33,901 bases of DNA, from NCBI GenBank assembly GCA_040905475.1, contig JBBDRM010000161.1, positions 3,527 to 37,427 on the forward strand, read 5' to 3'. This stretch comes from Actinomycetota bacterium (lineage in GTDB: Bacteria; Actinomycetota; AC-67). Under the pieces are notes generated by a model, which worked only from the letters and a program-made list of their open reading frames with translations, was not told where the DNA came from and did no database searches. A program made the position numbers and the translations under genes. Position 1 is the stretch's first letter; the number at the start of each line of letters is the position of its first letter. This document shows positions 1,211-9,842 of the stretch, in pieces.

Positions 1211-2641
1211 TTAGCGTTCGGCGAACCGGCGGAACAAGCCCTCATTGGCGTCCAGACGTTGCCGGAGCTCTTCCTCGGTCGCGAGGACGATCTGTGTGGG
1301 AGCCGTGCCCCAGCGCTCGAGTTCCTCGAAGAGCTCGATCAACGGCGACGGGTCGTCCGTCCGTGGGCGGATGTAGACGAAAAGCATGCTTTCGTCTCCT
1401 GCGATGAGCTCGACCTGGAACTCCAGCGCCCTCGGGACCGCCGAGGCCGCCGCGTAGCGGAAGTCGAAGCGGACCGCGCGGCCGTTGAGCCGGACCCGGC
1501 GCTGCCACGCGTTCCGGCGCACGCTCGGCCCGACACGGGGGACGGTGCGTCCACAGTTGGGACACGGCTGGCTCGTGACGCCGCCGAGCGCAAGATCGCC
1601 GGAGCGCCAGCGCGGCACACCGCCGCCGCGGAAGCCGAGCGGGGTGATCGTGATCTCGCCGGGCGTCTGCTCGCCGAGCGACTGAGCCGTGTCCGGCGAA
1701 AGGACCTCGACCAACTCGAGATCGGGGTACGTGTGGAACCCGAAGGTCTCGGATTTTCCGACCGGGACCGCGCACTCGCCCCAAAGGACGCGGCCTTCCG
1801 CCGGGCCGTACGCCGCGGCGATGCGAGCGTCGGTCGCTCCGGCCGCTAGGAGCGCTTCGCCGAGTTGCTCCCGCTCGGCTTTGGTCAGCGAGCGTCCGAC
1901 CACGAGCAAGGCTCGGATCTCGCTCAGATCGAGGCCGGCGCTCCGGGCGGCTTCCGGGAATTCCCCCACCTCGTCCGCGGGGATAGCGATCGCCGTCGGG
2001 CGCATCGCGTCGAACGCGACCAAAGCGCGAACGATGTCGCCGCCCTCGCGTCGCGAATGGACCGCGCTCATCCCGACCCCGTGGGCCATGTAGAAGACGC
2101 CCCAGAAGTCGAGCGTCGGGCCGAACGGGATCAGGTTGAGAAGCCGATCCTCGCGGTCGATGCCGGTGAGCGCCGCGAGCCGTGAGCCGGCACGCGCGAA
2201 CAGATCCAGGTCGTCCCGGGTGTACGCGATCGGGATCGGGCCGCCGGGCCCGAACGCGAGGTGCTGGTGGATCGGCCGGGACGCCGCCTCGATGGCGAGC
2301 TGCTGGACGTCCTCGCCGCCGAGAAGCCGGGCCGTCGCGACCCGTCTCAACGTGCTGCGGTCGCTGAACCGGCGAACGCCCTCCGCGGTGCCCTGCAGGA
2401 CGAGCCCACGGGCGCCCTCCGGGTTTCGCACGGGGTCGAGGACCTCCGCCCGCGTCGCCGTCGGGATCTTGGTCAGCTCGTCGAGCCCCTTGAACGTGCG
2501 CGCGTCGAGGCCCGCTGCGAGCAGCCGCGCACGGGCCGTGGGCACATGCGCCAGCTGCATCTGAAGCAGGGTTTGGCGCAGCAATTGATCCTGCGAGCGC
2601 CGATTGTCCTTGGAGGAAACCTGATCCCAGGGGCGAGCCAC
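1211..2641 (-). CDS. PaaK-like adenylate-forming protein with degenerate P-loop
   Basis: A 476-residue protein of the phenylacetate-CoA ligase (PaaK) branch of the ANL superfamily, whose members activate a carboxylate with ATP and pass it to CoA. Recognisable parts are AYTRDDL (139-145), AAYGPAEG (276-283, the A5 motif with its Glu), GEITITPLG (328-336), RWRSGDLA (344-351, with the A7 Asp) and CPNCGRTVPRVG (360-371), which matches the PaaK zinc/cysteine region. The usual Ser/Thr-Gly-rich P-loop (SSGTTGKP) is replaced by AFGPGGPIP (129-137), without Lys, Ser or Thr. ATP binding may therefore be altered or lost. The GTG start at 2641 has a TAGAAT box 7 nt upstream and no Shine-Dalgarno. The neighbours give no clear pathway. 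Confidence 0.75.
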   Translation of the reverse strand: MARPWDQVSSKDNRRSQDQLLRQTLLQMQLAHVPTARARLLAAGLDARTFKGLDELTKIPTATRAEVLDPVRNPEGARGLVLQGTAEGVRRFSDRSTLRRVATARLLGGEDVQQLAIEAASRPIHQHLAFGPGGPIPIAYTRDDLDLFARAGSRLAALTGIDREDRLLNLIPFGPTLDFWGVFYMAHGVGMSAVHSRREGGDIVRALVAFDAMRPTAIAIPADEVGEFPEAARSAGLDLSEIRALLVVGRSLTKAEREQLGEALLAAGATDARIAAAYGPAEGRVLWGECAVPVGKSETFGFHTYPDLELVEVLSPDTAQSLGEQTPGEITITPLGFRGGGVPRWRSGDLALGGVTSQPCPNCGRTVPRVGPSVRRNAWQRRVRLNGRAVRFDFRYAAASAVPRALEFQVELIAGDESMLFVYIRPRTDDPSPLIELFEELERWGTAPTQIVLATEEELRQRLDANEGLFRRFAER

Positions 2642-2687: not shown

Positions 2688-3473
2688 ATGGCTCGGCAAA
2701 GGCCGGCCCGCTACCATCCGCACGCTGTGGAAGAGATCGCACGGACCCCGGCCAGGCTCATAATCACCGGTGAGCGGACGCTGCCCGGCATCCCCGAGGA
2801 GAATTACTGGTTCCAACGGCACGTCGTCGCGTACCGGTTCGCCGCCGAACGCGTCGCGGATATGGACGTCCTCGACGCCGGGTGCGGCGAAGGGTACGGC
2901 GCCTCGATCCTCGCCGGACGGGCCTCCAAAGTCCTCGGCATCGACCTCGAGAGCGATGTGATCGACCACGCGTCCGAGCGCTATCCGAACGTGCGCTTCG
3001 AGGCCGGCGACCTCTCGACGCTTGCGTTCCCGGAAGGATCGTTCGATGCGATCGTGTCGTTCCAGGTGATCGAGCACCTCCAGAGCCCGCGCGGGTTCGC
3101 GACCGAATGCGCGCACGTGCTTCGACCGGGTGGTCTCCTCGTGCTGTCCACACCGAACCGGCTCACGTTCTCCCCTGAAGGCGTCCGCAACCCATTCCAC
3201 ACCGTCGAGTTCGCTCCCGAGGAGCTTCGCGGCGTGCTCGAGGAGAGCTTCGACGTCCAGATGCTCGGCGGCACGTTCCACAAGTGGCGCCTGTCCCTGG
3301 TCGAAAGCGGCATGCGCAGCAGCATTCCCGAGCGGCTCATCGCCCAGCCGGCCCCGGAGTGGCCGGCCTGGCTCCGCCGGGTCGTTGCAGCGGTCAAACC
3401 ACGTGACTTCCGGATCAGCCAGAAGCACGTGGAGCGCTCGCTGGACCTGGTCGCCGTCGCGCGCCGTCGGTAG
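2688..3473 (+). CDS. Class I SAM methyltransferase, Rv3030-like
   Basis: A 261-residue protein with SAM-binding motif I VLDAGCGEGYGA (61-72), an acidic residue closing strand 2 (LGIDLES), and post-motifs FDAIVSFQVIEHL and LRPGGLLVLSTPN. ITGERTLPGIPEENYWFQRH near the N terminus resembles the mycobacterial Rv3030 family, proposed to methylate glucose in methylglucose lipopolysaccharide. It lies 9 bp before a GH57 branching enzyme and near an Rv3032-like glucosyltransferase, which reproduces the mycobacterial gene set. The substrate is therefore inferred to be an intracellular alpha-glucan. The ATG at 2688 has only a weak ribosome site. A GTG at 2727, just before the conserved part, is a plausible alternative. 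Confidence 0.8.
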   Translation: MARQRPARYHPHAVEEIARTPARLIITGERTLPGIPEENYWFQRHVVAYRFAAERVADMDVLDAGCGEGYGASILAGRASKVLGIDLESDVIDHASERYPNVRFEAGDLSTLAFPEGSFDAIVSFQVIEHLQSPRGFATECAHVLRPGGLLVLSTPNRLTFSPEGVRNPFHTVEFAPEELRGVLEESFDVQMLGGTFHKWRLSLVESGMRSSIPERLIAQPAPEWPAWLRRVVAAVKPRDFRISQKHVERSLDLVAVARRR

Positions 3474-3482
3474 CGGCGGCCC

Positions 3483-5021
3483 GTGGGCGTCTTCTCGCTC
3501 GTCCTTCACACGCATCTACCGTATGTGCGGCGCAACGGCGTCTGGCCGTCCGGTGAGGACTTCTTCCACCAAGCCGCGACCGAGAGCTACCTGCCGATGC
3601 TCTCCACGCTCGAGCGCATCGCCGAACGGAACGACGGCGATCCGGCGCTGACCGTCGGCATCACGCCGCTGATCGCGCACCAACTCCAAGACCCCTACAT
3701 GCTCCGCGAACTTGCCCTGTACCTCGGCCGGTACGAGCTGCGCGCCTGGTGGCAGGTCGCCAACTACAACGACGTCTACACCGAGGAGTTCAAAGACATC
3801 GCCGCGTTCTACGCGCGCCACGCGCGCCGCCAGCTTGCCCGGCTGGAATCGCTCCCGAACGGCATCGCCGGCGCCTTCGGGGCGCTCGAGCGCGCCGGCG
3901 TCATCGAGATCGCCGGAGGACCCGCCTCGCACCCGGTCCTGCCCGAGATCGGCGAGCCGAGCATCATGCGCGCGCAGGTCTTCCACGGCGTGGCCGAGCT
4001 CGAGCGTCACTTCGGGGTGCGTCCCCGCGGGATGTGGCTCCCGGAGTGTGCTTACCGGCCGGGCCTCGGGATCGAGGAGCTCCTCGAGGAGGCGGGCGTC
4101 ACGCACGTCGTCGTGGACGGTCCGACGATGCTGCGGAGCGACGGTCCTGACGCCACGTTCCGTCCGCGCCGGATCGGCGCGAGCAACGTCGCCGCGTTCG
4201 CGCGCAACCTCGACGTCACCTACCGCGTCTGGTCTCCGACGGGCGGCTACCCGGGCAACAAGTGGTACCGCGAATACTTCGCCTACGACATGACGGCCGG
4301 ATTCAAGAACTGGCGCGTGACATCGGTCCACACGCCGATCGCAGGCAAGAAGCCGTACGACCCGGCCCGCGGAGCCGAAAGAGCCGCCAAGGACGCCGAG
4401 GATTTCGTCGCCCTCGTCGATCGGTCGTTGACCGAGCACGAGGAACGCACCGGCGCAGAGGGCATCGTGGTGGCGTGCTACGACACCGAGCTCTTCGGCC
4501 ACTGGTGGTTCGAGGGCCCGGCGTTCCTCGAGAAGGTCTACGCCCTGCTCGAGGGCCACCCGCGCATCAGGCCGATGTCGCTCGGCCGTGCCCTCGAGGA
4601 AGTGCCGCCCGAGCGCTCCGTGGAACTGGCTGAGGGCTCGTGGGGTTTCCGCAAGGACCTCCGCTCGTGGGTCGCCCCGGAGACCGAGGACATGTGGCGG
4701 GTGCTCGCCGAGACCGAGTCGGAGACCGTGCGCCTCGCTCGCAAGTTCGCCGAGCCGGGCCCCTCTCAGGGACGCGCGATGTCACAGCTCGCCCGCGAGC
4801 TCTTCCTGCTCCAATCGAGCGACTGGCCGTTCATGGTGCTGCGCGGGAAGAACGCCGGCTACGCGCGCGAGCGCTTCGAGGGCCACCGGGAGCGCTGGTC
4901 GCGGCTCGCCGACGCGCTGCTCCGACGGATGCCGGCCGCGCCGCTCGATCGCCTCACCGCGGAGCTGGCCGAGATCGACAATGCGTTCCCGGACCTCAGC
5001 TACAGCGCGTTCAGCTCGTAA
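3483..5021 (+). CDS. GH57 1,4-alpha-glucan branching enzyme
   Basis: A 512-residue family GH57 protein, the usual size for the branching-enzyme subgroup. These enzymes cut an alpha-1,4 chain and rejoin it as an alpha-1,6 branch. HTHLPYV (9-15) is the first conserved motif. MWLPECAY carries the predicted nucleophile Glu188, and YDTELFGHWWFEG carries the predicted acid/base Asp334. The C-terminal helical region (DWPFMVLRGKNAGYARERFEGH) is typical of branching members rather than GH57 amylases. The start is a GTG 9 bp after the methyltransferase stop, so the two are co-transcribed. It matches mycobacterial Rv3031 by order and family. Its 3' end overlaps the convergent protease gene by 22 bp. Confidence 0.88.
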   Translation: MGVFSLVLHTHLPYVRRNGVWPSGEDFFHQAATESYLPMLSTLERIAERNDGDPALTVGITPLIAHQLQDPYMLRELALYLGRYELRAWWQVANYNDVYTEEFKDIAAFYARHARRQLARLESLPNGIAGAFGALERAGVIEIAGGPASHPVLPEIGEPSIMRAQVFHGVAELERHFGVRPRGMWLPECAYRPGLGIEELLEEAGVTHVVVDGPTMLRSDGPDATFRPRRIGASNVAAFARNLDVTYRVWSPTGGYPGNKWYREYFAYDMTAGFKNWRVTSVHTPIAGKKPYDPARGAERAAKDAEDFVALVDRSLTEHEERTGAEGIVVACYDTELFGHWWFEGPAFLEKVYALLEGHPRIRPMSLGRALEEVPPERSVELAEGSWGFRKDLRSWVAPETEDMWRVLAETESETVRLARKFAEPGPSQGRAMSQLARELFLLQSSDWPFMVLRGKNAGYARERFEGHRERWSRLADALLRRMPAAPLDRLTAELAEIDNAFPDLSYSAFSS

Positions 5022-5776
5022 GGCCTCGGCCAGGGGTTCGGCTTGCACGTATTGCCGTTCGTGGTCATGCCCTTGGACTGCTGCATCATCACCGGCGCGT
5101 ACGCCCCGTCCTTCGAGCATCCGCGGTGATGCTGGCCGAGCGTGTGGCCGATCTCGTGGTTGACGAGCATCTGCCGGTAGACGGGCACCGCTCCGGGCCA
5201 ATGGTCCGACCCCTTGAACCATCGGTCGGAGTTGAGCACGACCTCTTTGGAGCCGGCGCACGAGTAGTAGTAGTTCACGCTCAGCCCGATCAGCTGCATG
5301 CAGCGCTTCTCCGCCGAGGCCGGCTTGCGCAGACCGACCAGCAGCGAGCCGTTCGGGTCGTATCGGAACCGGACCTTGCCGCTCCCGATCCACGAGCGCT
5401 CGTCGCAGAGCACCGACAGCAAGTCCTCCACGAACCGCGACGGCGTGGTAGCCAGCCCGTCCTCGACCAGAACCCGGAACCGAACCAGCTTCGCACCCGG
5501 CGTCCCGCAGGTCTTGCTCGGCTGCGCGGGCCCGGAGCTGGCGAGGAATGACGGAGCGACGACCGACTTCTTGACCGGCACCGGGGTCGGCTTCGCGGTG
5601 GTCTTGGCGGAAGGCATCGTCGTGGGAGCGGCCCCGACATTCGGCGGCAGAAGGGCTACGGCTCGGGTTTGCGGCCGCCCGGCCTCCGCGAGGATCGCGG
5701 TACCGGCGCCGCCTCCGAAGCCGAAAAGCAAGCCGACGAGTGCGCCGAACCACACCGGCCGCCATCCGATCTTCAA
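5000..5776 (-). CDS. DUF3152-type membrane-anchored zinc metalloprotease
   Basis: A 258-residue protein. Residues 1-30 form a hydrophobic signal or anchor segment, 35-85 a Thr/Pro/Ala-rich linker, and 90-258 the catalytic domain. VNHEIGHTLGQHHRGC holds an extended HExxHxxGxxH zinc site (His207, Glu208, His211, His217), followed by a Met-turn candidate YAPVMMQQSKGM (226-237). Five or more cysteines suggest disulfides outside the cell. This arrangement fits the actinobacterial DUF3152 family, whose substrates are not known to me. The start appears to be TTG at 5776; a GTG at codon 8 is possible. It is antisense between the branching enzyme and the glucosyltransferase and overlaps the former's 3' end by 22 bp. 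Confidence 0.78.
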   Translation of the reverse strand: MKIGWRPVWFGALVGLLFGFGGGAGTAILAEAGRPQTRAVALLPPNVGAAPTTMPSAKTTAKPTPVPVKKSVVAPSFLASSGPAQPSKTCGTPGAKLVRFRVLVEDGLATTPSRFVEDLLSVLCDERSWIGSGKVRFRYDPNGSLLVGLRKPASAEKRCMQLIGLSVNYYYSCAGSKEVVLNSDRWFKGSDHWPGAVPVYRQMLVNHEIGHTLGQHHRGCSKDGAYAPVMMQQSKGMTTNGNTCKPNPWPRPYELNAL

Positions 5777-5918
5777 CCTGCTCAGGAGACCCCCCTACGA
5801 GCCGAATCTCGAAAGGATATTCAGGGCGACTCTCGATAGCGACTCGCCGCGGAACGATCACCGTTTTGCCCGGTAGTGGACGCGCGTGAAAGGATTCGCC
5901 GACCTCAGGGGCTGGCTC

Positions 5919-7193
5919 ATGCGGATCCTCATCCTTTCGTGGGAGTACCCGCCGCGCATCGTCGGCGGCTTGGGGAAGCACGTCCACCGACTGTCGCTCG
6001 CCCTCGCCGAGGCCGGGCACACCGTCCACGTGGTCACCCGAGATCACCCGGACGCGCCGCCCGAGGAAGAGATCGACGGCGTCCACGTCGTTCGCGTCGG
6101 CGAATACCCGCCGATGGTTCCCTTCGACGAGCTGATCCCCTGGGTGATGCAGTTCAACGTGGGCGTCCTCGAGCGGGCGACCAAGATCCTGCTCGAGGAG
6201 GAGGTCGATCTCGTCCACGCGCACGACTGGCTCGTCGGATACGCGGCCGCGGGAGTGAAGAACCTCTTCGACCTTCCCCTCGTGTCGACCGTCCACGCGA
6301 CCGAGTACGGCCGCCATCAGGGGTACCTCCCGGGCCCGATGAACAAGCTGATCCACCAGATCGAGTGGTGGCTCACCTACGAGTCACGCCGCACGATCAC
6401 CTGCTCGCGCTACATGCACGACCAGATCCAGGAGATCTTCCAGCTCCCCGCGGACAAACTCGACGTGATCTCGAACGGCGTCGATCTGGACGCGGTGCAC
6501 AAGCCCGATGGGATCGAGGAGTTCCGCGCCGAGCGCCTCGCCGACGGCGAGAAGATGATCTTCTTCGCCGGACGCCTCGAGTACGAGAAGGGCGTGCAGA
6601 CGGTCCTCGACGCGCTGCCGCTCGTAGACCAGCAGGTTCCGGTCCGCTTCTTCGTGGCCGGCGTCGGCACGCACGAGCAGGCGTTGCGCGAGCACGTCGA
6701 GCGCGACGGCCTCGACGGGCGCGTCGAGTTCCTCGGCTTCGTTCCCGACGAGGAGCTGGCCATGTTCTATGCCGCGGCCGACCTCGCCGTGGTGCCGTCC
6801 TTGTACGAGCCGTTCGGCATGGTCGCGCTCGAGACTATGGCCGCCGGCACGCCGTGTATCGCCGCCGACACCGGCGGCCTGCGCGAGCTCGTCGTGCACG
6901 ACGCGACGGGGTTGCGATTCGAGCCCGGCGACCCCGCCTCGCTCGCCGGCGCGATCCTGCGCTTGCTCACCGACGCGCGGCTCGACCGGCGCCTCACCTT
7001 GGACGCGCGGCGGATGCTCAACGACCAGTTCTCTTGGACGTCCATCGCCGATCGGACGGTGGACGTCTACGAGCGGGCGATCCGCGAAGAGCGCCGCCTC
7101 CGCCGGACCCACCGGCGCGAGGAGCGCGCTCCGCTCCGCGTCATCCTCGGCCGGTCCGAGATCCTCGGGCTGGCCGGCGAACCCGCAGGCTAG
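5919..7193 (+). CDS. GT4 alpha-glucosyltransferase, Rv3032-like
   Basis: A 424-residue GT-B glycosyltransferase of family GT4. The N-terminal Rossmann domain opens with MRILILSWEYPPRIVGGLGK, containing the GGLG acceptor/phosphate loop. The C-terminal donor domain has AGRLEYEKG (Arg219, Lys224) and the EX7E motif EPFGMVALE (Glu297, Glu305), then GTPCIAADTGGLREL. Family members extend alpha-1,4-glucans from ADP- or UDP-glucose, and Rv3032 builds the backbone of mycobacterial methylglucose lipopolysaccharide. I chose the ATG at 5919 because conserved homology starts there and AGGGG precedes it; a GTG at 5886 would add 11 residues. With the branching enzyme and methyltransferase it forms a glucan-building set. 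Confidence 0.85.
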   Translation: MRILILSWEYPPRIVGGLGKHVHRLSLALAEAGHTVHVVTRDHPDAPPEEEIDGVHVVRVGEYPPMVPFDELIPWVMQFNVGVLERATKILLEEEVDLVHAHDWLVGYAAAGVKNLFDLPLVSTVHATEYGRHQGYLPGPMNKLIHQIEWWLTYESRRTITCSRYMHDQIQEIFQLPADKLDVISNGVDLDAVHKPDGIEEFRAERLADGEKMIFFAGRLEYEKGVQTVLDALPLVDQQVPVRFFVAGVGTHEQALREHVERDGLDGRVEFLGFVPDEELAMFYAAADLAVVPSLYEPFGMVALETMAAGTPCIAADTGGLRELVVHDATGLRFEPGDPASLAGAILRLLTDARLDRRLTLDARRMLNDQFSWTSIADRTVDVYERAIREERRLRRTHRREERAPLRVILGRSEILGLAGEPAG

Positions 7194-7426: not shown

Positions 7427-8128
7427 TCAGAACCGATAGCCGAACCGCTCCATGTCGGGCCGGAAGACCTGCTCGACGAGCTTGCGCGCCGCATCCGTGT
7501 AGTACGACCGGTAGTCCTTGTCGCGTGGGGTGGGATTAAGGTTCGGCATCTCGAGGCCGGTCGGCGCACCGAGCTTCCGCAACACCTCGTCGAGATCCTC
7601 GTGGAGCCGCTCGAACTGCATCACGTGATCCATGCCGGCGAGGTAGCGTCCGTACATGTGCTGCGGCCGGACGGGGACGCGCTCACCGCTTCGCCACGGA
7701 CGGACCCGGCTCGGATGCGTGTACCGCTCGGTCACCCATTCGCTGAAGCTCATGTCGGCCGACCTCCGGACGTCCTCGAGCGCGCGCGGCTTCCGGTGAA
7801 GGAACGAATCCTTGTCGTCGACCAGCTCGGCGTAGGTCGTCTTGTTCTTCACGTACAGGGACACCAGCGAGTCGAACGGGTTCCGCACCGCGCAGAACTT
7901 GAAGAGCTGCGCCGGCTTCTCCTTGGCGATCAACCCGTAGTCGAGGAGGTCGGCCAGCGTGCTGTGCTTCGAGTCGACGAGCAGCCGGCCGTTCTCGTCG
8001 AGGATGTCCTTCCACGGCACCCGCGCGACCTTCAGATGCGGAACGAGGATCCCGTACGCGATCGAAGTGCAGCCCGTCCTCGGGGACATCACGAACAGGA
8101 ACTTGTACGCCTCGGAGATGTACGCCAT
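7427..8128 (-). CDS. PAPS-dependent sulfotransferase (Sulfotransfer_2-like)
   Basis: A 233-residue protein. VMSPRTGCTSIAYGI (13-27) matches the 5'-phosphosulfate loop of PAPS sulfotransferases, and FCAVRNPFDSLVSLY (78-92; Arg82, Ser87) the 3'-phosphate-binding motif. These enzymes move sulfate from PAPS to a hydroxyl or amine, and family 2 members usually act on carbohydrates. The gene is third in a minus-strand operon, 17 bp after the acyltransferase stop. The acceptor is unknown; next to a glucan cluster a polysaccharide or glycolipid is the natural guess. No signal peptide is visible, so it is likely cytoplasmic. Confidence 0.78.
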   Translation of the reverse strand: MAYISEAYKFLFVMSPRTGCTSIAYGILVPHLKVARVPWKDILDENGRLLVDSKHSTLADLLDYGLIAKEKPAQLFKFCAVRNPFDSLVSLYVKNKTTYAELVDDKDSFLHRKPRALEDVRRSADMSFSEWVTERYTHPSRVRPWRSGERVPVRPQHMYGRYLAGMDHVMQFERLHEDLDEVLRKLGAPTGLEMPNLNPTPRDKDYRSYYTDAARKLVEQVFRPDMERFGYRF

Positions 8129-8145: not shown

Positions 8146-8889
8146 TCAGGTTCCGCGTTGCCCGGTGCCGACCCGCGTCTTGAGGACCTTCGCCGGGACC
8201 CCGCCCACGATCGACCGCGGCGGGACGTCGCGGTTGACGAGCGCGTGCGATGCCACGACCGAGCCCTCACCGACCGTCACGCCTCGGAGGATCGTCGATT
8301 TCTCCCCGATCCAGCAGTCGCGCCCGATCACCACCGGCGATTTCACGATCCCCTGCTTCTTGATCGTCACGTTGAGGTCTTCGTACTTGTGGTCGAAGTC
8401 GCAGACGTAGATCCAGTCCGCGAAGATGCAGTCGTCTCCGATGTCGATGTCGAGGTAGCAGTTGATCGTGTTCTTGGCTCCGAACACCACTTTGTTGCCG
8501 ATGCGCAGATTCCCTTCGTGGCAACGGATCGCGTTCCCCTTGCCGATCCAGACCCATCGCCCGAGGGTCAGCCGTCCGTAGCCGCGACGCGCGTACACCT
8601 CTACCTTCGGCCCGAGGAACACGAAGCCCTCGGTCTTGATGTGGGGGTGCGTGATCTTGAATCTCAGGAACCGGATCCCGAGGACCCAGTATCGCCAGGT
8701 GTAGAGCCGGTGCGACCAGATGAAACGCAGCGTCCGCCCGACCCGGACCGGGAACGAGCGCCCGAGCGCGGGGGGCGGCGGAACCGGCGCGAGCTCCGGC
8801 CCGCTGGCGGGGATGACTTCGGCGGCTTCGGGGACGACGGGCTCGGGGCCCGCGTCGGCCTCAGCGACGAACGGTCTCGGGTCCTCCAT
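8146..8889 (-). CDS. Left-handed beta-helix (hexapeptide) acyltransferase
   Basis: A 247-residue protein. Residues 1-45 are Pro/Ala/Glu-rich and probably disordered; 50-80 is a basic, aromatic segment. From about 105 there are hexapeptide repeats (LTLGRWVWIGKGN, LRIGNKVVFGAKN, IDIGDDCIFADWI, VVIGRDCWIGEKS, VTVGEGSVVASHA). DFDHKY contains the predicted catalytic His167 in the loop where xenobiotic and sugar acetyltransferases place it. IVGGVPAKVLK near the end is the usual family finish. It should transfer acetyl or another short acyl group from CoA to a sugar hydroxyl. The ATG at 8889 is 11 bp after the methyltransferase stop, so the genes are operonic. Acylation of the methylated glucan is an inference from context. 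Confidence 0.8.
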   Translation of the reverse strand: MEDPRPFVAEADAGPEPVVPEAAEVIPASGPELAPVPPPPALGRSFPVRVGRTLRFIWSHRLYTWRYWVLGIRFLRFKITHPHIKTEGFVFLGPKVEVYARRGYGRLTLGRWVWIGKGNAIRCHEGNLRIGNKVVFGAKNTINCYLDIDIGDDCIFADWIYVCDFDHKYEDLNVTIKKQGIVKSPVVIGRDCWIGEKSTILRGVTVGEGSVVASHALVNRDVPPRSIVGGVPAKVLKTRVGTGQRGT

Positions 8890-8900
8890 CGGGTGCGAGA

Positions 8901-9842
8901 TTACCGCGCCGCCGAAGGCTTCTCCGCATAGAAGAGCAGGTTGTAGAACAGGGGCTTGGGCACGAGGTGGCGCGTCACCGCGTCGTCCAGCCGGTACAAC
9001 CGCAGGTAGTTCCGGTACGCCCAGTACGCCCACCGCTCGCCGAGCAGGCCGGGAGCGGCCAGCGCCTCGACGGTCCGCACGCTCCAGCCGAAGAAGCCCG
9101 ACACGAACTCCTCGGTGCGTATCCGGAGCGAGCCGAAGCCGGCGTCGCGCAGCCACCCCTCCACCATGTGCGGGTGGAACTCGTGCAGATCGACGTGTCG
9201 CTCCAGGGCGGCGGCGGGATCGTCGTGCTGCGTGACGGCGCGATCGGGGTTCACGAGACCGGGCCGTACGCGCCCGATCGCTTTGAACGCGGTGGCCGTC
9301 GCCCGCCGCGCGACCTTGTTGACCGCGTGGCCGATGCGGGTGGGCTCGCCCGCGATGACGAGCACCCCGCCCGGCTTCAGCACCCGGTAGCACTCGGCGA
9401 GCGCCGCCGGCACGTCGGGGAGGTGGTGGAGTACCGCGTGCCCCACGACCAGATCGAATGAGCCGGTCTTGTACGGCAGCGCCTCCGCGTCCGCGTCCCT
9501 CCCCTCGAGGTTCTTGAGCCCTACCAGGCGTGCGTTGCGCTTGCAGACCTCGACCATGCCGGGAGAGATGTCGGTCGCGAACGCCTGACGGACGAGCCCC
9601 GCCTGCCAGAGATTGACGATGAAGAACCCCGTCCCGCAACCGATCTCAAGAACCTTGTCGTACTTGCGGACCGGCGCGACCTTGGTGAACTTCTCCTTCG
9701 CGTACGAGATGCAGCGCTCGTCGAACGAGATCGACCACTTGTCGTCGTACTGGGTGGCCTCCCAGTCGTGGTAGAGGATGTTCCTGGTCTTGGCGTCGAG
9801 CTCGGCCGGGTCGTGGCGCAGATCCGTTCGCACGGTGCTCAT
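8901..9842 (-). CDS. Class I SAM methyltransferase
   Basis: A 313-residue protein with KVLEIGCGTGFF (63-74) as motif I, ATDISPGM as motif II, and FDLVVGHAVLHHL and LKPGGVLVIAGEP as motifs IV-V. The C-terminal 110 residues (FGWSVRTVEALAAPGLLGERW onward) extend beyond the core and probably shape the acceptor site. The class is certain; the substrate is not. It is the first gene of the minus-strand operon with the acyltransferase and sulfotransferase, suggesting all three modify the same surface or storage glycan or lipid. It starts with ATG at 9842, head-to-head with the secreted repeat protein at 10026 across 183 bp. Confidence 0.8.
   Translation of the reverse strand: MSTVRTDLRHDPAELDAKTRNILYHDWEATQYDDKWSISFDERCISYAKEKFTKVAPVRKYDKVLEIGCGTGFFIVNLWQAGLVRQAFATDISPGMVEVCKRNARLVGLKNLEGRDADAEALPYKTGSFDLVVGHAVLHHLPDVPAALAECYRVLKPGGVLVIAGEPTRIGHAVNKVARRATATAFKAIGRVRPGLVNPDRAVTQHDDPAAALERHVDLHEFHPHMVEGWLRDAGFGSLRIRTEEFVSGFFGWSVRTVEALAAPGLLGERWAYWAYRNYLRLYRLDDAVTRHLVPKPLFYNLLFYAEKPSAAR

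Follow-up and report, generated by a model that had tools for sequence, protein, structure and literature searches.

The DNA analyzed here (33,901 nucleotides, hereafter the window) encodes a homologue of phenylacetate-CoA ligase (PaaK) whose clade appears to have lost ATP chemistry, a conclusion well supported by sequence comparison, and probably does a different, non-ATP job. We lean toward the explanation that the window protein is a conserved member of the PaaK (ANL) fold that would no longer adenylate acids, would have a re-made charged pocket and would act by binding. The annotation of ANL enzymes often rests on the fold alone, so that the protein would be named a phenylacetate-CoA ligase. 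Its clade, in which the ATP loop has been lost and invariant residues of its own have been gained, offers an example, open to testing, of a ligase fold apparently put to another use, and a warning that the gene should not be named from its fold.

The gene is a single intact ORF of 476 aa on the minus strand (2641–1211), with a GTG start at position 2641 and a stop at 1211–1213; these are exactly the limits given by the original prediction, which had named no strand. Read on the plus strand, the interval contains in-frame stops, and the codon-position G+C of the ORF is 0.74/0.51/0.87. In the translation, AFGPGGPIP and then IAYTRDDL (aa 129–145) are followed by AAYGPAEGR (A5), RWRSGDL (A7) and CPNCGR. 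The features of the gene are as follows:

1211..2641, minus strand: PaaK-like protein with degenerate P-loop, 476 aa (ORF, PaaK 4r1l alignment, codon-position G+C)
2231..2257, minus strand: degenerate A3/P-loop, aa 129–137, AFGPGGPIP versus SSGTTGxPx (alignment)
2051..2059, minus strand: His195-Ser-Arg197 (conservation in clade versus sister group)
1970..1972, minus strand: Glu224 (conservation in clade versus sister group and PaaK-type sequences)
1793..1810, minus strand: A5-like YGPAEG, aa 278–283, Glu282 retained (alignment)
1595..1612, minus strand: A7-like RWRSGD, aa 344–349, Asp349 retained (alignment)
1547..1564, minus strand: CPNCGR, aa 360–365, cysteine pair of the PaaK CPCGR region (alignment)
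1214..1252, minus strand: C-terminal tail DANEGLFRRFAER, aa 464–476, without lysine where PaaK has GK (A10 lysine) (alignment)

The original prediction had described a protein that keeps the A5, A7 and CPNCG regions of PaaK ligases and carries AFGPGGPIP as its ATP loop, and the translation bears out both statements, with AFGPGGPIP lying opposite SSGTTGNPT of PaaK 4r1l. It had also argued from the normal alignment of the flanking AYTRDDL that the loop is no frame error. Indeed, YTRDDLDLFAR aligns with 4r1l (phmmer E 3.1e-9), and the corresponding loops of genomes G001, G002 and G004 are likewise degenerate, in genes without internal stops.

Judged by its search scores, the window protein is a remote homologue of PaaK that lies outside PaaK proper. 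The PDB search that returned 4r1l also returned 2y4o, and a profile built from 14 clade members matched 4r1l (E 3.2e-19) and seven other PDB sequences, mostly PaaK-type ligases. Nothing in Pfam rose above its cut-off for the window protein, with AMP-binding (PF00501) at 18.2 bits against a gathering cut-off of 29.9 bits; other clade members also stayed below this value (L036, 27.7 bits; L041, 24.5 bits) or had no PF00501 match listed (L082 and L018), and three sister-group members (see below) scored 50.0–57.9 bits. The PaaK cut-offs of NCBIfam were also missed: the best score of the window protein was 61.1 of 700 bits (NF041878), and TIGR02155 reached 29.3 of 646.3 bits. The second- and third-best NCBIfam matches were FlxY, a putative acyl-CoA ligase of flexirubin biosynthesis (NF053551, only 42.7/520 bits), and the DVU_1553-family AMP-dependent CoA ligases (NF045666, only 30.2/300 bits). 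Compared with PaaK ligases (4r1l, 2y27/2y4n and 2y4o; TIGR02155 and NF041878), the window protein is homologous across the large domain, and its family, f1, has A5- and A7-like motifs and the cysteine pair in common with them; however, PaaK ligases keep the P-loop Ser/Thr residues and the A10 lysine, both of which the window protein has lost. An AlphaFold2 model computed from a two-sequence alignment had a mean pLDDT of 35, and no structural claim rests on it.

We found 20 members of the clade. Its profile matched in all five genomes of the window's class and, within a second actinobacterial class, in 15 of 66. In the phylum sample, 44 of 396 genomes had a match at E ≤ 1e-30, 13 of which were clade members and 31 of which scored lower. 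Among the 50 matches listed for this sample, 34 were read (30 with loci and four read earlier), and the lower-scoring matches whose sequences were read belong to the sister group. This actinobacterial group (L009–L012, L014–L016, L064–L070, L072 and L074–L079), with the typical loop TxGRTALPTP, shows profile homology to the clade end to end (hhalign of the two profiles, 458 columns, E 5e-70); because the trees described below are unrooted, it is the nearest, or 'sister', group if PaaK is the outgroup.

The dataset comprised 52 distinct sequences after 10 duplicates, L005 and L034 (the G001 gene, 66% identical to the window protein) had been set aside, and seven sequences were added later. The maximum-likelihood tree of 48 rows, which leaves out the partial rows L007, L008, L016 and L074, has the 11 degenerate-loop sequences on one side of a branch with support of 100/99, and the 19 sister rows and 15 PaaK-type rows were supported at 99/95 and 100/99, respectively. 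A tree of 50 rows computed without the motif columns, leaving out six partial rows and three own-genome paralogues, still placed the 16 degenerate rows in one clade (100/99). The stem of the clade was long (0.7–0.8). Thus, full-length homologues that share the degenerate loop form one clade, with and without the motif columns, which the original prediction had asked to be checked. An intact loop within this clade, named there as evidence against the proposal, was absent from all 19 members that cover the loop.

In these 19 members, we counted hydroxyls at four positions where the PaaK loop has Ser or Thr. No hydroxyl was found in 16 and only one in three, compared with two to four in all 21 sister sequences and three or four in all 15 PaaK-type sequences. 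The f1 loops read AFGPGG-PIP (window), AGGLGG-PIP (G001), VPGAGG-TIP (G002) and AAGPGG-RLP (G004); all four have lost every loop hydroxyl and have a glycine-rich GxGG in common. A review describes hydrogen bonds from Ser94, Thr96 and Thr97 of PaaK1 to the ATP phosphates, and one of the motif mutants that it tabulates, changed at a Thr of the P-loop, is 2,000-fold less active (excerpts of PMC8388817).

The Glu of the A5 site was present in nine of the 19 clade members covering it, five of which belong to f1; outside f1 it was kept in 4/14 and lost in 10/14, and six of the ten members without it have a Glu one residue before the site. The A7 Asp was found in 5/18 members (four of f1, and G288) and lost in 13, that is, in 13 of the 14 members outside f1. 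The sister group, unlike the clade, keeps both A5 Glu and A7 Asp, together with at least two loop hydroxyls, in all 21 sequences. An Arg at the A8 site occurred in 4/17 clade members, all of them f1, and the counts for the cysteine pair were 13/18 and 12/17, including all four f1 members that reach the pair. The window protein itself retains Glu282 (A5), Asp349 (A7), Arg376 (A8 site) and the cysteine pair.

The A10 lysine is termed the key catalytic residue in the excerpted text of PMC8388817. This lysine was seen in none of the 17 complete clade tails, and in all 13 PaaK-type tails readable by the tail pattern. However, at this site the 19 complete sister-group tails carry Lys (7), Arg (11) or Leu (1). 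Because only 7 of these 19 carry Lys, leaving 12 that lack it as the clade does, we downgraded the loss of the A10 lysine as evidence for a dead ligase, from strong to weak when taken alone, and shifted a little probability from the explanation that we favor to a ligase with a different phosphate grip. From this distribution, the lysine loss in part predates the loop loss or is independent of it. The 12 sister sequences in question all belong to family f15 (L009–L011, L064, L065, L067, L069, L070, L075–L077 and L079); they keep the P-loop hydroxyls, the A5 Glu and the A7 Asp, and have Arg (11) or Leu (1) at the A10 site.

The source genome (G000, 173 contigs) has a second PaaK-like gene, L003:281-1627 (+) on contig C52, in which VSPGPMFYASQ stands opposite SSGTTGNPT of PaaK. 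It is nearer to PaaK (4r1l, E 7e-42) and retains GRTDE and a lysine near the C-terminus, and its loop change looks independent of the degenerate-loop clade.

Several residues are particular to the clade. Arg197 was found in all 19 members covering the site, compared with Gly in all 21 sister sequences. The Glu224 site, at which Glu replaces the Tyr of the PaaK TPSY segment, had Glu in 17 and Asp in one of the 18 members covering it, compared with Tyr in 20/21 sister and 15/15 PaaK-type sequences. Trp379 and Arg395 were each invariant (17/17). His195 was also invariant in the clade (19/19), yet it occurred in 17/21 sister sequences, and Arg284 and Glu289, from which few or no clade members deviate, are common in the sister group too. 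The fixation of clade-specific residues alongside the disappearance of the ATP motifs speaks for a new function under selection.

The gene has the following neighbors in the window:

2688..3473, plus strand: SAM-dependent methyltransferase, divergent neighbor (Pfam Methyltransf_11, E 1.4e-24); similarity to homologues begins near aa 24–27, and the true start may be later
3483..5021, plus strand: GH57 branching-enzyme-like protein (Pfam Glyco_hydro_57, BE_C)
5003–5776, minus strand: DUF3152 gene between the GH57 and GT4 genes, on the strand opposite to both
5886..7193, plus strand: GT4 glycosyltransferase (Pfam Glycos_transf_1)

Across the clade, the chromosomal address of the gene, between the methyltransferase/GH57 genes and nifS-mnmA, is kept, and its neighbors are not obligatory. 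In 14 of the 20 clade genomes, the methyltransferase (E ≤ 1e-20) shares the contig with the gene and lies no more than 15 kb away. It is on another contig in two (G246 and G411) and gave no match in G003, G041, G414 and G415; the G003 contig ends inside the gene, and G414 is 59% complete. The mnmA gene was on the same contig in 11 of the 13 clade genomes searched, in each case downstream of the PaaK-like gene, on its strand and no more than 15 kb away. Among the eight non-f1 genomes of the first sample, EtfBA genes lie immediately upstream in six (G013, G074, G225, G288, G246 and G257) and some 11 kb upstream in G161, and no EtfB match was obtained in G041; in the f1 genomes, EtfB matches sit on other contigs. 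We accordingly rejected an obligatory link to EtfBA, given that G041 has the gene without EtfB and given the position of the f1 matches. A strict link to the methyltransferase and GH57 genes was also rejected, since there are carriers without the pair and loci without the gene. G041 (2.1 Mb, 96% complete) keeps the gene with no EtfB, GH57 or methyltransferase match, and G415 similarly has it with no match to GH57 (E ≤ 1e-3) or the methyltransferase (E ≤ 1e-20). Conversely, profile searches of the stretch and the genome found no copy of the gene in G052, G027 and G063, which have the locus; G052 has both the methyltransferase and GH57. G096, whose locus is split over two contigs, is left out of this count. 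The address is thus inherited and the gene can be lost; because the neighbors are not obligatory, no pathway can be assigned from them.

In G041, the stop of the PaaK-like gene directly adjoins the nifS start (L043:8985-8986). The neighborhoods of seven sister-group members contained no methyltransferase, GH57, nifS, mnmA or ligA genes; one had an EtfAB pair (35% identity) and two had weak glycosyltransferase matches. Near two sister members, the ORFs L046:14740-16662 and L048:14032-15918 have starts that presumably resemble aldehyde ferredoxin oxidoreductase.

The adjacency of methyltransferase, GH57 and GT4 genes at the window locus is also that of the mycobacterial MGLP cluster Rv3030–Rv3032, to which the three neighbors correspond in Pfam type and order only (excerpts of PMC2674218 and PMC4555173). 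However, the cluster and the gene do not co-occur exclusively: G041 and G415 have the gene without a GH57 or methyltransferase match, and G052 has matches to both without the gene. Excerpts of the MGLP cluster descriptions (PMC2674218, PMC4555173) name no PaaK-like gene.

The gene is under purifying selection in f1. For nine of the ten f1 genome pairs (all but G003/G004), dN was 0.27–0.34 and dS, which is near saturation, 0.9–1.9; dN/dS of the gene in f1 was about 0.17–0.33. This ratio is no higher than those of the neighboring methyltransferase (0.29–0.50, three pairs) and GH57 (0.33, one pair) genes. The G003/G004 pair, with an overlap of 43 codons, had a dN of 0.011 and a dS of 0.27. These values bear on the possibility that the gene is a decaying copy heading for loss, which would be in keeping with its absence from the locus in some relatives, such as G052 (of the genus of G013 and G074), where it is dispensable. 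However, the listed clade members, some of them truncated by contig ends, are free of internal stops, dN/dS is about 0.2–0.3, the same loop loss runs throughout a clade spanning two classes, and Arg197, Trp379 and Arg395 are invariant in every member covering them. Decay of a single copy was therefore rejected on dN/dS, the loop loss shared in one clade and clade-wide conservation, and we consider a gene on its way to loss extremely improbable.

According to the explanation that we favor, the loss of the P-loop hydroxyls that hold the ATP phosphates, together with that of the A10 lysine, would leave no ligase reaction, and the former substrate pocket would now accommodate a ligand that is polar or charged, perhaps an acyl-CoA or some other phosphorylated metabolite; the charged pocket is inferred from the clade-invariant Arg197 and Glu224. 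The protein would then owe its role to binding instead of catalysis, serving as a sensor, a carrier or a partner without catalytic activity. Of the three options raised in the original prediction (a pseudoenzyme, a regulator or a ligase that grips phosphate differently), this corresponds to the pseudoenzyme, which the clade as a whole favors, with the A7 Asp lost in 13 of the 14 members outside f1. The window protein itself is likely inactive as a ligase, although this is less sure than for the clade because it retains the A5 Glu, the A7 Asp and the A8-site Arg. Against the favored explanation stand the frequent lack of the A10 lysine in sister tails and the Glu found one residue before the A5 site in six of the ten clade members without Glu at that site. 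Against it, too, f1 keeps the A5 Glu, the A7 Asp, the A8-site Arg, the cysteine pair and a glycine-rich loop. In particular, the backbone amides of GxGG might still hold ATP or some other nucleotide. This leads to the alternative of a still-active ligase with a different phosphate grip, in which backbone amides of the f1 loop would hold the phosphates and some other basic residue would stand in for the A10 lysine. The occurrence of Glu282, Asp349, Arg376 and the cysteine pair in every f1 sequence covering them and of GxGG in all four f1 loops is consistent with such an enzyme, and the 12 of 19 sister tails that lack the A10 lysine belong to proteins that keep the other motifs, so that a ligase without it may be possible. 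However, every loop hydroxyl is gone in f1, and the members outside f1 have lost the A7 Asp (13/14) and the A5-site Glu (10/14) and yet are conserved elsewhere, which points to a function of the clade that is independent of ATP chemistry. We therefore regard the different grip as unlikely.

It is less probable again that the protein is an ATP-free catalyst, for example an acyltransferase or thioesterase, that would act on ready-made acyl-CoA at a new site made of His195-x-Arg197, Glu224, Arg284 and Glu289. The clade keeps these charged residues with few or no exceptions. Arg197 and Glu224 set it apart from the sister group, whereas His195, Arg284 and Glu289 are common there too; all are known from the alignment rather than placed in a structure. 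The adjacent methyltransferase, GH57 and GT4 genes, being of the MGLP-cluster Pfam types, would suit such a role, since MGLP bears acyl groups and acyltransferases other than OctT had not been identified as of 2015 (excerpts of PMC4555173). However, G041 carries the gene with no methyltransferase, GH57 or EtfB match, and three genomes have the locus without the gene. We hold as slightly more doubtful still the proposal that the protein senses acyl-CoA or acts on it catalytically without ATP, by a new charged site at His195-x-Arg197 and Glu224, and that in most carriers it serves the adjacent methylated-polysaccharide-type genes. PaaK enzymes dimerize via the N-terminal domain, which bears the P-loop. 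The window protein could accordingly be a non-catalytic subunit in a dimer whose other half is an active PaaK paralogue from the same cell; three other PaaK-like matches were found in G000, and PaaK dimerization is described in the excerpted text of PMC8388817, but the paralogues lie on other contigs, and we consider this quite improbable. Term searches of an open-licence library brought up no paper on such a clade, and several sets of terms aimed at a PaaK or ANL pseudoenzyme returned none at all; DIP2 has ANL domains that retain ancestral motifs (excerpts of PMC9342972).

Further observations concern the surroundings of the gene. At window positions 8146–9639 (minus strand), an ORF has a C-terminal hexapeptide acetyltransferase part, with WbbJ- and Vat-type matches below cut-off, and adjoins a sulfotransferase gene at 7427–8128 (minus strand); the gene call at 8146–9639 is unsure, and codon bias picks another frame at 8901–9842. 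Downstream of the PaaK-like gene are two long ORFs with N-termini that are signal-like by eye, L035:1088-3223 (−) and L035:3108-4655 (−), the latter extending into the window at positions 2–1129. One of the two has an Amidase_2 domain, and the C-terminal part of this ORF resembles a stretch of the other and also L035:14053-14700.
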